Assembly: GCA_011634665.1 (NCBI GenBank)
Contig: WAEK01000009.1
Location: 797,501 to 861,500 of the forward strand
DNA length: 64,000 nucleotides
Direction of reading: 5' to 3'
From: Mortierella sp. BCC40632
Taxonomy: Eukaryota > Mortierellomycota > Mortierellomycetes > Mortierellales > Mortierellaceae
The notes under the pieces are model-generated. The model saw only the letters and a list, made by a program, of their open reading frames with translations. It searched no databases and was not told where the DNA came from. Below, one piece after another: positions 44,730 to 49,674 of this stretch. Position 1 is the first letter of the stretch. Every line of letters starts with the position of its first letter. Both the position numbers and the translations under genes were made by a program.

Positions 44730-44762
44730 GTATCCCTTAAACCGTTAGCCAGGCAAAAATGC
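44730..44762 (+). repeat. left terminal inverted repeat with subterminal palindrome
   Basis: TATCCCTTAAACCGT at 44,731-44,745 is followed by GGCAAAAATGCC at 44,752-44,763, an interrupted palindrome. The base between the outer TA and the repeat (G) differs from its counterpart on the right, so the exact element boundary is uncertain by a base or two. Confidence 0.8.
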
Positions 44763-45264
44763 CATTTAACTTAGAGGTTTCCAGCCTTTTTCTCGAAAGT
44801 CTTTTAAACCACAACCCCCCCTTCTCTATGGTCAGAAACTAGCAGATCAAACTACGTGCTGACATCACCATCAGAATCTAGCCGGCATTGGGTAGATGCA
44901 AAACCATCATGGAAACAATGGGTCTACTCATTCATCTGAGATCACACCTGTGGTCCGTGCGGAATTTATTAATAATTGTATTGTGCTAACAGCCGTCGCT
45001 CGCTTTGCTTGCTATGGCTGAAGATTCACTCGGTCACCATTAATAAAAGAGAGGACAAACGACTTTTTGATGAAAGTATCTGATGAATCGCTAAAAGCAC
45101 GGGATAGACACTGATGCGTAAGAGAGTGTGCAAGAGAGTGGATGGGGCGGAATTTGGCTTTGATATCTCGAGCTCCCGATGTCCTTTTCCTTTTTTTTTT
45201 TTTTTCACTTCTCTGGCACGTTTTCCTCACACCTTCGAAAGTTCACTTTTAATCACTTCTGACC

Positions 45265-47113
45265 ATGGGAGTTAAACAGGCCTGGAAAAAAGTTACGGAC
45301 GCAGGCATCCCACGATCTGCTGTAGATCCGAAAGAGTTCCCATATGTTCATATCGACCTCTTCTCCTTGTTTTTTCACTACATCCTTGCCATTTTTATTT
45401 TGGTTCCACACACCGCGCTCGTCTTCAAGAGGCAAGAAGCCAGACAAAGAACCAGGTTGGGTCGCCAAGGCGCTCAATAAGAAGCTGGATCTCGTTTTCT
45501 CAAGGGATGCGATAATACACATCGACGGACTCCCCACCAGCGAAAAGGCCGTCGCCCGGAAATATCGCTCCAAGAGAGAGGAGGATAGCCGTCGCCAGTG
45601 CTCCAGCTCACTGTCCGCATTCAATGCGGCAATCCAGCCTGGACAAGAGTACCCCGAAGGCGGCCTTCGCTCGGCGCGCAACTTGCGCCGACGGCTACTC
45701 CGGGCGTTCAAGAAAATGATGGTGTCCTGGAGAGGTGCAATGGAGATCAGCATGGACACGCGACACAGGCTGGCCAAAGACCTTGTTGCTCTTGGTCGTC
45801 ATGCTCACGTCTGCTCTGGCGAGGCCGACAACTGTATTAGACACGAAGCAATGGAGAGCAGCCAACGGATCTATGTCGCGACCACTGATAGTGACATGCT
45901 GTTCATTCCTAATGTCCATGTACTCAGGCAAGACTACAGCAACAGGTCCACATTCTATCTTTATACAATCGACGACCAAGCCCTAGAGAAACTAGGGGTT
46001 CCTGACTTTGGGGTGTGGCAGACGATTGCCATTACTTCAGGTAATGATTATTGCGACAACCTCAAAGGATTTGGTATCACCAAGAACCAGAATATTCTTG
46101 TGAAGCTGTGGAACCGTTCACCAGCAGGCCAAAGGACTGCACGTGCGCTGCTGGCGGGATACACGACTAGCTTCGATGCAGATCCGCATAAGTTTGATGC
46201 CGCGGCCAAGATCTTTCTCGACGCGGAAGAGACGCCTCTCAAGTTCCCAGCCACGCCTTCCGAGACGATCAGCCTGTTGGACCTAGTCTTGGCTGCCGCA
46301 AAGAGATTCCCCGAGGAGCTTTCCAGACTCAACTTTCAGATTAGGCAAGAAAAGTCTAAAGCACGAAGTAAGACTGAGTATTTTTTTTTATACTTGCCTC
46401 CTTAGTCCTACGACGCTGCAGGGATTCATAACTAATGGTACTTGTCCACTATTTCTTTTTTTTTTTAAAAAAAAAATGTCATCTAGGTTTAGAACCATTG
46501 CCTAGAGCGCCCTTTTCATTTTTGCTTGCTGATGAACGGCGAAATAAAGACGCTGGGCCGACATGGCGTGGGCCTAGATCTACGAAACGACTGGTCAAGG
46601 GACAAACAAAGCCGAGTTTTAAGCTTGTCCAACCTCGAGGCATGGGGTTAATCGAAAATTTTCCAAGATCTCACGATGAGGAAGAGGATGAGGAGGTCTC
46701 CGACCCAAGTGTTGCTGGCGAGACGGCTCAAGGGAACATCGAACACACAAAAGACAAGGCCAAGGGGCTGAAAATACAACAACAAGATTGCCCTGTGGGC
46801 GAACGACTCGACTCTGACAAGCAGATTCTCAAAAGGCAAGGTGTATGCGACTTTTTTTGGATTGATGTAATTAAAAAATAAAGGATGCGAGAACTGATAT
46901 TTTTTCGATTGATCCAAATGTAGGCAAGGTATCAAGAGAGGAGCATCAACAAGTGAAGCAAAAAAGGCAAACGCACCACCAGATCCTCCACCGAAACGAC
47001 AATGCAAAAAGCTGGCGAGAGCAAAGGCATCAACGCTTGCAGTTCAAACGGCTCTAGGAACAGGAAGCGTAATGGGACAGGATCATCCAACAGAGTATCG
47101 CCTGGCAATCTAA
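45265..47113 (+). CDS. FEN1/XPG-like PIN-domain nuclease of the element, frame break near 45,400
   Basis: The start MGVKQAWKKVTDAGIPR is the typical N-terminus of 5'-nuclease proteins, followed by YVHIDLFSLFFHY. After a frame change near 45,370-45,430 (no clean intron), coding continues with IIHIDGLPTSEKAVARKYR (the Asp and Lys/Arg helix of the family), CSGEADNCIRHEA, ATTDSDMLFIP and ITSGNDYCDNLKGFGITKN. These supply the expected metal-binding acidic residues and the helix-hairpin-like region. An intron (46,368-46,486) leads to a basic, acidic-patched tail. The next intron is flanked by GGCAAGGT on both sides: a GC-AG choice gives a frame ending at 47,113 with a PPKRQCKK basic motif, while the GT choice stops at 47,057. 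FEN1-like enzymes cut flaps; the role in mobility is inference. Confidence 0.72.
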
Positions 47114-47657
47114 TTGACCAAGCATTGGACTCAACTTCTGACTGTATTACCCAGAAGCGCGAGCCGATTCTGTGGCGAGTAGCGTCAGTTTTGGAGGAGA
47201 GGTTGCCTTCAAAAACCAAAGAGGAGCGCAGTGGAGCTGCCAAGTATATTGCCGACACGGTGCTAGCACTCGCCAAATGCCACTCGGAGGCGACAAAAAT
47301 TGGACTGTACATCGTACGGTGGTTTGTTGTGAATGGGAGTCAAGAGGATGGCAGAAAAAAGTTACAGATCCTAGATACGGAGGATTTTTGCCGCCAGCTC
47401 TTAATGCTGCTATACTATGAAAACAGAACAAAGCGAGGGACTGTTGGCATGAGTCTAGCCAGGGAGGTAGTAGACGACTTTGCAAAGAGTGCAGGCCCCA
47501 ATTTCAAACAACAACGAGATCGGCTCCAGTCGCACCTACAAGGACAAGTACCACAGTGTTTTTTTGAGAGTTCTGGCCGGAATCTGTACAGTACGTTGTG
47601 CAAAACATTTGTCGAGTTTGTCCCCGAGTTGATCAAACGAGTAAGTGGTTCATGCTC

Positions 47658-47702
<45 letters not shown>

Positions 47703-49472
47703 TAGTTGTTAACTCAACATAATATTCTAGGCGCGTCGGCTGAACCCAGGATGGGCACAATCAACAGAGGGAGCAGCCATGCTGGCAGCAGTAGAGGAAA
47801 AAGGAATATCAGAGGCGTTTAGCCAGGCCGAGGTCTTCACAGTCCTCAACTTCCAGCTGCCCATCAAGGACCGACTAGAACTAGCTCCTACTGCAAAAGA
47901 GTCAACGTCATTTCTCACCATTTCTGAACAGTATTTTGTCCGCGCTATTTTTCGACAAGATTTGGAGCACAAAGTGGAACAAGGAATAATCAAGGACCTG
48001 TTAGGAGTCAGCTCCCAGAGAGAGGGATCTTCGAAGGCATCCAATCATCCAGGCGAGATCTACTACAGGCTCTTTGTCGGTGGGAGACAAAGAAGCAATT
48101 ACGACAAGACTACCTGTGTTGGGAGGGCCCTCATCGTCTCAAGTTCCGAGTCTTTTTCGACTCTTTTGCAATGGCGGAAGAGGAGCTCGAGGAGGCAGCC
48201 CAGAGATTGCCAGGGCGAAAAAGAGCAGAAAGCTCGACGGCAGTAGCTCAGGGCGACGAGAGTGAAGCCAAGAGACGATATGGTCAACTAAAGACTCAAT
48301 TTGTCGAGATGACAAAGGAGAGGATTGCAATTCTGAAGAAAACCAAAAGTTGCCAGATCGAGAAAGAAAGCATGCCAGCAGCGATTTCTCCACAGCAGAA
48401 ATACTGCTTGCGAGGGACGATGGTAACGGACGGATATCAGTTGCGGCTGCTTGCGTACCGTCCTCTAGATCCAAAGACTGAAAAGTTTCAAAGGCCCAAG
48501 ATCAAAGCCGAGGCAGCCAACGCAAGTGCTCATCCTCTGAACGTAGGCCGAACCACTATCCGGTATGCGACAGAGCTCTTTGCGAACAAAGAGACTGTTT
48601 TACAGCTTGTTGGCGATAGCTGCGTGGTGATTGGGGTTGACCCAGGGATAGCGGAGCTTGTCACAGCAGTGATCGTTGCCAACCACCACCTTTCCAGAGG
48701 GACATACAACTGGCACACACAGGGGATGAGACACCTAATGAAACTCGCCAAGGAGACAGACGGGATTAATGCAGTAGAGCAAACGATAGTCCCAGTAACG
48801 ATTGGCGGACTCGACTGAAACAGCTCTCCAAGAGCACGGAAGACCATGTCCTGTCGAAGCTCAATGCGGACAGATCGCTTGGATCTTTCTATGGATCGAC
48901 GGCGTACAAGACGCTCAAGTTTCGAAAACAACAAGAACATGCTGCAGAGATCGACCAGCGACTCTCGCATATTTTGCGGACAGCAGTCAGCATTGCCAAT
49001 CTCGAACCTGCAGAAGATATGAAAGAGCCTCTGCCTAAGCCCAGTTTACCATCGAAGCGACAGGTTATCCTCGCGATTGGGGATGGAGTATTCAAACCAT
49101 TGAACGGTGGAACGAGTGGGACATACGTTGTGTTGGAGAGGCTGTGCCAGATGGTAATGAACATTAATATGAGCAATTGTGTAGACCAAAGTGAGGAGAG
49201 TAGCTAACGATTTAATCGTTATATTTGTGGATGACAGGCACAAGGGATGGGAATCATTGTCTGCCTCGTTTTTGACATCGCGGCAATGTTGCCTCTGTGG
49301 TTTGAAAACAGAGGAGATGAAAAGAAATCTTGTATGCAAGGCAGGAGGAGGGGTCCAGCATGATGCAGGCCGTGATCGTGATATCAATGGGGCTCACAAC
49401 ATGGCAATGGCGGTACACAACTGGTTGTCCAAGATGGAATGGCCATGGTTCTTGCGCCGGATAACCAACTAG
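47002..49472 (+). CDS. Fanzor-type (eukaryotic TnpB-like) RNA-guided nuclease, disrupted
   Basis: From ATG 47,002 the frame runs to an intron (47,641-47,730), then on to about 48,050. A frame change leads to RLKFRVFFDSFAMAEEEL and the RuvC-I motif VIGVDPG (Asp codon 48,639). Another change at 48,770-48,800 leads to WRTRLKQLSKS, then GSFYGSTAYKTLKFRKQQ and VILAIGDGVF. A possible 31-base intron near 49,152-49,184 leads to LIVIFVDDRHKGW, FLTSRQCCLCGL (zinc-finger Cys pair) and RuvC-III GRDRDINGAHNMA, ending at 49,472. This order (long N-terminus, GxDPG, FYxS, GDG, VD, TSxxCxxCG, RDxNGAxN) is that of Fanzor proteins. The alternating frames mean decay, sequence error or unrecognised introns. About 780 residues if intact. 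Confidence 0.82.
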
Positions 49473-49674
49473 GAGCGCTCTGCTCCCCAAGTCGAGCGTG
49501 GAGCTCGACAATAATTATCCCGTATTGGTAAGCAATTCATGGGCAATTCACGGAGATGCAAGCCAGGCCAACTCAAATATAACCAGTAGTGGATGCTAAC
49601 CCTCTCTTTCACTCTTTCACTCCCATTTTTTGACTGGCAAATTTGCCTATTAAACCTTACGGTTTAAGGGATAA
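49473..49674 (+). ncRNA. candidate guide (omega) RNA region at the element's right end
   Basis: Directly after the Fanzor stop are two adjacent potential hairpins: GGAGC-gctct-GCTCC (49,472-49,487) and GTCGAG-cgtggag-CTCGAC (about 49,492-49,510). The 200 bases to the right end contain no ORF. In characterised Fanzor and TnpB systems the guide RNA comes from the region 3' of the nuclease gene and its guide segment begins at the element end. Here that would be the sequence outside 49,674. Expression is not shown; this is inference from position and hairpins. Confidence 0.45.
49640..49674 (-). repeat. right terminal inverted repeat with palindromes
   Basis: ACGGTTTAAGGGATA at 49,659-49,673 is the complement of the left repeat. 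Just inside lie the perfect palindrome GGCAAATTTGCC (49,636-49,647) and a TAAACC/GGTTTA stem (49,651-49,666) formed partly by the repeat itself. Confidence 0.8.

Follow-up and report, generated by a model that had tools for sequence, protein, structure and literature searches.

A FEN1/EXO1-like nuclease accompanies Fanzor in Mortierella transposons and may take part in their spread

Why should a transposable element carry two different nucleases side by side, and do the two together move it? The question is raised by a stretch of 64,000 nucleotides from Mortierella sp. BCC40632 (hereafter the window), in which positions 44731-49673 hold an inverted-repeat element that belongs to a family inserting at TA sites and is itself decayed. 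A first-pass annotation had read it as a FEN1/XPG-like nuclease and a Fanzor forming a mobility system without a classical transposase. The window element comprises the following features:

44731..44745, + strand: left terminal inverted repeat TATCCCTTAAACCGT, exact, near-identical in piggyBac-type elements
44752..44763, no strand: left subterminal palindrome GGCAAAAATGCC, shared with subfamily A and, nearly identical, with a piggyBac-type element (contig C8)
45265..46405, + strand: FEN1/EXO1/XPG-like nuclease frame, with a frame shift near 45390
46435..46881, + strand: intervening open frame (acidic linker), with a peptide that recurs in subfamily A
47002..47712, + strand: Fanzor N-terminal coding piece, with homologous frames in loci L043 and L048
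47732..48818, + strand: Fanzor middle part and RuvC-I, with a DPG motif near 48630 and frame breaks
48770..49204, + strand: Fanzor RuvC-II region piece, with the AIGDG strand
49191..49472, + strand: Fanzor zinc finger and RuvC-III, with RDINGAHNM and a sub-threshold match to Pfam Cas12f1-like_TNB
49474..49673, + strand: putative guide-RNA scaffold at the right end, in which an internal TTATCCC can pair with the terminal GGGATA
49636..49647, no strand: right subterminal palindrome GGCAAATTTGCC
49659..49673, - strand: right terminal inverted repeat, an exact match to TATCCCTTAAACCGT

The matching terminal repeats, the subterminal palindromes and the two nuclease genes on one strand are thus all there, as had been claimed. 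Within the window alone, two matches at 3 mismatches are not unusual, being reached in 27 of 100 shuffles; the host genome, a fungal genome of approximately 50 Mb, contains 30 exact copies of the 15-mer, whereas its reversed sequence, taken as a control, has 0. Twenty of these 30 copies face each other two by two, and the 10 stretches so bounded measure 4.6-7.2 kb in nine cases and 88 bp in one. The TA at the repeats is present as well, but as the opening dinucleotide of the 15-mer and not, as the annotation had it, just outside; the first TA of the left repeat is probably the target duplication, and a target motif beyond TA was sought at the left ends of subfamilies A and B, with none seen. 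The window copy itself is broken, its FEN-like frame being shifted, its Fanzor interrupted by several frame breaks, and the alternative RuvC-II glutamate deleted (within 49191..49472).

What moves such elements? The ends of the window family match those of piggyBac-type (PF13843) DDE transposase elements elsewhere in the genome, one of which has an unbroken transposase frame of 553 codons. Namely, two 2.1-kb PF13843 elements, with no FEN or Fanzor match, carry the repeats with 1-2 mismatches and share terminal and subterminal sequence with the window family, their ends being near-identical and partly homologous to its own. This match makes it probable that the window family is moved in trans by a classical transposase, and for this family the notion of a transposase-free system is not supported. 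The copies themselves have no PF13843 match inside, be it in any copy of subfamilies A and B or in the four copies of a second family described below, and are therefore non-autonomous by this measure. More generally, no DDE_3, DDE_1 or PF13843 gene lies inside two-ended copies with both nucleases among the matches listed (all but the weakest DDE_3 rows, compared with the element coordinates by eye). Tc1/mariner and pogo transposases were likewise dropped as movers of the window family, with no DDE_3 or DDE_1 match listed inside the elements and with the matching ends belonging to PF13843 elements. The usual piggyBac target site is TTAA; unlike piggyBac-type elements, the window family lacks a transposase gene and its flanks show TA only. 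A third open reading frame of 281 amino acids in subfamily A was rejected as a transposase, since it has no Pfam or NCBIfam match (its version in the C25 copies gives one sub-threshold FixQ match, E 0.15). It is repetitive, recurring at dozens of other loci (79 matches), runs in the opposite direction in the C25 copies, was not found in the subfamily B and family C loci examined, and gave an unusable fold model (pLDDT 44).

The second family, family C, is young: four copies, approximately 98% identical, with ends unrelated to those of the window family. Termini shared with a PF13843 element are found in the window family only. One could propose, with the first-pass annotation, a transposase-free system of two nucleases in which, at least in family C, strand processing at excision or insertion falls to the FEN-like nuclease and not to a DDE enzyme. 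Indeed, the listed DDE_3, DDE_1 and PF13843 matches place no transposase between family C ends, and at no more than 1 mismatch the only other two-ended element with such ends is a single nested relic, although this search would miss a transposase element with divergent ends. Terminal inverted repeats with a 2-bp TA duplication are, moreover, a hallmark of DDE transposition, and the window family shares its ends with a DDE element, so that we regard this alternative as quite improbable.

Are the two proteins what they were taken to be? The predicted structure of the family C relative of the window FEN-like protein has the FEN1/EXO1/XPG superfamily fold, with EXO1 and FEN1 as best matches; the model has a pLDDT of 68 and was built on 6 sequences, and its structural alignments run at 9-18% identity among the 50 matches listed. 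The acidic active-site residues of these enzymes are present: D31, E194, D196, D220 and D222 are invariant in 6/6 sequences and D90 in 5/6, which we take to correspond to FEN1 positions from the strand order of the model and the known FEN1 active site. The NDY motif stands in all five rows long enough to cover it, and the window frame still encodes the acidic motif residues (HID, HIDG, GEAD, DSD, NDY). In sequence searches, the family C protein matches Pfam XPG_I_2 with an E-value of 4.9e-4, below the Pfam cut-off, the subfamily B protein has no XPG_I_2 match, and a sequence-profile search of the PDB returned 0 matches. Fold and motifs bear out a FEN1/EXO1-type nuclease, which differs from its EXO1, FEN1 and XPG relatives in being transposon-borne and in having its own C-terminal tail running into Fanzor. 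The second protein is a true Fanzor by its RuvC-I DPG motif (VIGVDPG in the window and in the A and B copies, VTAVDPG in family C), its CxxC zinc finger and an alternative RuvC-II glutamate six residues before that finger, found in 16 loci (L031-L035, L037-L039, L041, L043, L044, L048, L050-L053). The zinc-finger piece in the window matches Cas12f1-like_TNB with E 8.7e-5 and a score of 23 bits, short of the 26.3 required, and a PDB sequence search with Fanzor gave no credible match.

The central observation is that the two genes stay together. In 22/22 linked loci the FEN-like gene lies upstream of Fanzor on the same strand, where approximately 0.3 linked loci would be expected by chance; in all, 37 loci have a FEN-like gene and 31 a Fanzor, and 22 of each are paired. 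The count drew on all 53 rows of one search and on 38/66, 12/34 and 11/37 rows of three others, the rows dropped being, as judged by reading, further pieces of loci already listed, each of which was retained. Some copies are not independent insertions: L031 and L034 have the same sequence on both sides, a left flank is common to L041 and L048 and another to the C25 trio, and L032 and L039 share a right flank. All 13 un-nested, two-ended coding copies (bounded by exact repeats of subfamily A or B, or by the ends of family C) carry both genes, and two 88-bp copies neither. A nested relic on C6, read up to its last 3.4 kb, has Fanzor remains, no FEN match and an internal PF13843 gene. Among unpaired loci, 12 of 15 FEN-like ones are 24-46% alike and three 58-73%, and five of nine Fanzors are 54-88% alike, judged by the best piece.

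Could the nucleases simply be passengers on elements moved in trans by DDE transposases, the FEN-like one having no role in mobility and acting, for instance, against other DNA, or being a captured repair gene? A piggyBac-type transposase with near-identical ends does exist, and so do many other DDE genes (151 DDE_3 and 36 DDE_1 matches). One would then expect frequent loss of one member, whereas order and strand are retained across families only 30-36% (FEN, approximately) and 24-36% (Fanzor) alike, and both genes are under purifying selection between subfamilies, with omega higher within families (0.25-0.52 for FEN and 0.10-0.64 for Fanzor). We therefore consider passive carriage rather unlikely.

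The reading that we favour, albeit tentatively, is one of cut and copy, by a Fanzor module that brings its own nuclease for end processing and travels on ends borrowed from other transposons. Its conserved core would be the FEN1/EXO1-like 5' nuclease directly upstream of Fanzor. We infer that the window family, with its borrowed piggyBac-type ends, would be moved in trans by the PF13843 transposase of the 2.1-kb elements; after excision, Fanzor guided by an RNA from the right end and right flank would cut the site left empty (TA, or ACTA in family C), the 5' ends at the break would then be trimmed or resected by the FEN/EXO1-like nuclease, and repair would copy the element back, with the sister chromosome or the homologue as template. 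The pairing suggests, in other words, that site cutting and broken-end processing are coupled in the spread of these elements. The right flank would serve as the guide of the putative right-end RNA. Its folding energy is not better than that of shuffles in L043, L048 and L050 (z 0.38, -0.78 and -1.24), and covariation, with 2/29 predicted pairs changed on both sides, was dropped as support because of too little divergence. Family C insertions sit after ACTA, a motif spotted before it was tested and set against a background from the window only; in the four empty paralogues, the insertion site reads TG instead of TA.

Alternatively, the FEN-like enzyme might repair the gaps or flaps that remain once the transposase has inserted the element, independently of Fanzor, with homing carried out by Fanzor alone. 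FEN1 is known for flap removal, and EXO1 and FEN1 are the best folds. The host FEN1 could do the same job, though, and neither the strict linkage to Fanzor nor an in-frame splice joint in family C would be explained, which makes this improbable. Concerning that joint, predicted splice sites in family C connect the FEN-like and Fanzor frames in frame, and the two may thus be one fused protein in that family. Shuffles reach the strict splice thresholds, set near the observed scores after those were seen, in 7/1000 (whole region) and 9/1000 (spacer) cases, and looser ones in 62/1000. The first strict search gave a fused path in L038 only, and none in L043 or L050; a scored search with a low intron cost was discarded as over-spliced. 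In subfamilies A and B the best fused path would depend on a weak AAG acceptor or on at least three introns, and the peptide QPRGMG(L/M)I(E/D)NFPR of the window's intervening frame also occurs in subfamily A. It is possible, if doubtful, that a single gene encodes an EXO1/FEN1-like 5' nuclease, a lysine-rich linker and Fanzor, which would cut the empty site, resect the ends and force templated copying, the cassette having moved between unrelated transposon ends. In the favoured cut-and-copy reading, the FEN1/EXO1-like nuclease of the youngest family is probably spliced in frame to Fanzor.

Engineered fusions of nucleases with exonucleases exist, and a true fusion here would be their natural counterpart, with a predicted motif, ACTA, and four young copies. 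The pairing bears on how eukaryotic Fanzors serve the transposons that carry them: that a dedicated nuclease for 5' end processing is kept beside Fanzor despite swaps of ends points to break repair as the selected function, testable by two active-site changes in one element.

The closest known system is Spu-1 of Spizellomyces punctatus, a terminal-inverted-repeat element with a TA target duplication and the Fanzor SpuFz1 (PMC3627910; PMC10432273). Spu-1, like our elements, has no transposase found between its repeats, has copies without the open reading frame, and has a conserved pair of bases preceding the left repeat that falls within the target motif, with CATA in Spu-1/SpuFz1 and a similarly laid out ACTA inferred for family C. 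Spu-1 differs in having one open reading frame and no FEN-like nuclease; in our elements, moreover, a DDE transposase element has ends matching those of the window family. According to PMC3627910, Fanzor1 occurs in Mariner, IS4-type and other DNA transposons, so that capture by DDE-type elements is common to both, and IS4-type relatives with similar ends hold either a transposase or a Fanzor, as seen here. PGv-1 is described there with Fanzor1, a second nuclease (GIY-YIG) and a Mariner transposase; the companion here has instead an XPG/FEN1/EXO1 fold, is kept across unrelated ends and is possibly fused. Viral contigs contained no giant-virus relatives of either protein, and protein relatives were found only in Mortierellaceae.

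Protein searches of the host genome returned 37 loci coding for a FEN-like nuclease (of the FEN1/EXO1/XPG fold) and 31 coding for a Fanzor (an RNA-guided RuvC nuclease), and at 22 loci the two lie no more than 5 kb apart, where chance placement would lead one to expect 0.34. In all 22, the genes share a strand, with the FEN-like gene upstream. The FEN-like loci without a partner number 15; similarity is 24-46% for 12 of them and as high as 58-73% for the other three. The nine unpaired Fanzor loci comprise four that are 37-45% alike and five that reach 54-88% in their best piece, two of these five (on contig C22 and at C6:1133457) being remains of family C, a second, young family of elements. 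According to PMC3627910, Fanzors within DDE elements have already been described, as have separate elements with similar ends that bear the transposase, and PGv-1 carries a second nuclease, GIY-YIG, beside its Fanzor. Against these known Fanzor-DDE elements the FEN-like/Fanzor pairing appears new: we saw no report of it in the open-access collection searched, outside which most subscription papers lie. Separately, at C5:2903086-2906256, a DDE_3 match and a divergent Fanzor that lacks a FEN match are 2.2 kb apart; the host may thus also carry a classical Mariner-Fanzor element.

The matching terminal repeats reported in the first-pass annotation are real: the 15-bp repeat is exact at either end of the window element (44731-49673). 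It occurs exactly 30 times in the host genome (49.9 Mb, 62 contigs) and never in the reversed control, and 20 of these occurrences form 10 facing pairs. Two-ended coding copies fall into subfamily B, of approximately 5 kb (the window element and loci L033, L038 and L043), and subfamily A, of approximately 7.1 kb (loci L031, L032, L034, L041 and L048). The window element is 93-96% like the other B copies, L048 is 96-98% like the other A copies, and A and B are about 66-72% alike in both genes, for which omega between the subfamilies is 0.15-0.19 (with synonymous sites near saturation) and within families 0.10-0.64. Judging from its reading frames, the window copy itself is dead, because of a frame shift in the FEN-like gene, a broken Fanzor and a lost glutamate. 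There are also one-ended copies, two gene-free 88-bp copies (L040 and one within L042, the latter having one mismatch at one end) and, on C25, a third variant at most 89% like subfamily A across long stretches. A third ORF of 281-332 aa lies upstream of the FEN-like gene in subfamily A (L048:5799-6641, minus strand) and, on the opposite strand, in the C25 copies (L045:7644-8639, plus strand). Its versions are about 42% alike across the C-terminal part; it is one of a dispersed family of repeated genes, and no Pfam entry matches it above cut-off. What is more, the copies L041/L048 and L032/L039 have one flank in common (98-99% over at least 480 bp), the other flank not being shared in L041/L048; ectopic recombination or segmental duplication via the element may account for this.

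The annotation had also envisaged mobility without a classical transposase, and for the window family this is not supported, since near-identical ends are found on a transposase element on C8. Namely, a search allowing two mismatches in the repeat, in which chance matches dominate (87, versus 85 in the reversed control), contains two facing pairs, each spanning approximately 2.1 kb, on C18 and C8. The C18 pair encodes a DDE_Tnp_1_7 (PF13843) transposase in its middle, and two of only five PF13843 loci genome-wide lie inside these pairs; the C8 gene is an unbroken frame of 553 codons in the genome-wide search, the C8 element having been read at its ends. We take these elements to be of the piggyBac-type family, Pfam's own name being 'Transposase IS4'. 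Over 36 bp, the C8 left end is 94% like the B left ends of L033 and L043, and a further stretch of about 136 bp follows at 74-76% (E as low as 2e-23). It also matches the left end of the window element at 68% over 184 bp, and the C8 right end matches the B right end. Because of these shared ends, the window family is most readily interpreted as related to the PF13843 elements but lacking a transposase, and it would be moved in trans. At C1:3471800-3472754, a window-type repeat with one mismatch and a short remnant of a PF13843 gene are separated by 0.8 kb and may be left over from that transposase family. At C22:49116-56838, 7.7 kb lie between facing window-type repeats with two and one mismatches, possibly by chance, and genome-wide searches gave no FEN, Fanzor or PF13843 match there.

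Family C consists of four 4.7-kb copies (L050-L053), 97.7-98.6% alike. They differ from the window family in their ends, which form an inverted repeat of 48 bp, 85% alike and starting TACAGT. Between these ends lie a FEN-like gene, its frame unbroken in three of four copies, and a Fanzor, with no further match, including in searches for DDE_3, DDE_1 and PF13843. Compared with the window family, similarity is about 30-36% for the FEN-like protein and 24-36% for the Fanzor; the gene pair has thus persisted while the transposon ends changed. A partner transposase element with family C ends was not found in the host genome at up to one mismatch. The only other two-ended place is a 14.4-kb relic on C6 (11.0 kb of it read), which holds a frame we presume to be gypsy-like and a PF13843 gene with its own TATCCCTTCG-like ends. 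The same relic includes, near its left family C end, a frame (L054:915-1697, plus strand) that contains both DEYQTSKTCVFC and RDQSAAMAIA and looks like a different Fanzor lineage. At L051:7067, the family C insertion sits exactly at the TA bordering a 2.2-kb pogo-like (DDE_1) element, whose ends recur in the host genome.

In family C, the two nucleases are likely fused, as the predicted exon structure suggests. The FEN frame meets CAG|GTTAGT, the Fanzor frame starts directly after GATAG|GAG, and in each of the four copies the two sites share a reading phase. A small exon between them, 69 bp long in L050 and 81 bp in L052 and L053, preserves the frame, the lengths differing by 12 bp; with the pattern used, it was not found in L051. 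Equally good joints arose in 7/1000 whole-region and 9/1000 spacer shuffles at strict thresholds, set near the observed scores after these had been seen, and in 62/1000 at looser ones. No in-frame ATG precedes the anchor motif of the first Fanzor exon in L050, L051, L052, L048 or L032; one does in L043 and L038 of subfamily B. The relative P0001 (Lunasporangiospora, labelled partial) has as its last residue the one that precedes the family C donor site. A clean FEN-Fanzor splice path was not found in subfamilies A and B.

The family C FEN-like protein has a predicted fold like EXO1, FEN1 and XPG, its best structural matches being EXO1 and then FEN1; the acidic motif residues are preserved in the FEN-like proteins, and Pfam gives XPG_I_2 alone, below threshold. 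Following the definitions in PMC10711439, the Fanzor is recognised by DPG, by RuvC-III and by a glutamate located six residues ahead of the zinc finger; its zinc-finger region matches Cas12f1-like_TNB below the Pfam cut-off. The protein database contains six related proteins, whose four source species are Lunasporangiospora selenospora, Podila humilis, Podila epigama and Actinomortierella wolfii; the three species looked up are all Mortierellaceae, P. humilis being congeneric with P. epigama.

Insertion flanks in subfamilies A and B have TA only. In family C, L052 lies within a repeated region whose empty paralogues read ACTGCGG (three) and ACTGCAG (one), its joined flanks reading AC-TA-CGG; the simplest reading would be that the duplicated target is TA (TG in the paralogues), the preceding AC being host sequence rather than element. 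Each of the five family C left ends that could be read is preceded by AC (p about 1e-6, with the ACTA background taken from the window only and the motif noticed before testing). Ahead of its left repeat, Spu-1 has two conserved bases, CA, and SpuFz1 has CATA as its target motif (PMC10432273). On both grounds, ACTA is predicted to be the family C Fanzor target motif. The mechanism we favour, tentatively and with slightly less belief than doubt, is Fanzor cut-and-copy; it agrees with EXO1, ahead of FEN1, as the best-matched nuclease, with the strict linkage of the two genes and with the predicted target motif. A guide copying the right flank would direct Fanzor to cut the excised site, the 5' nuclease would then process the cut ends, and the element would be copied back, or into the homologue. 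Right-end folding energies are no better than those of shuffles; in the predicted right-end fold of the window family, an internal TTATCCC can pair with the terminal GGGATA, taking in the TA, much as Fanzor1 right-end RNAs include the TIR and target duplication (PMC10711439).
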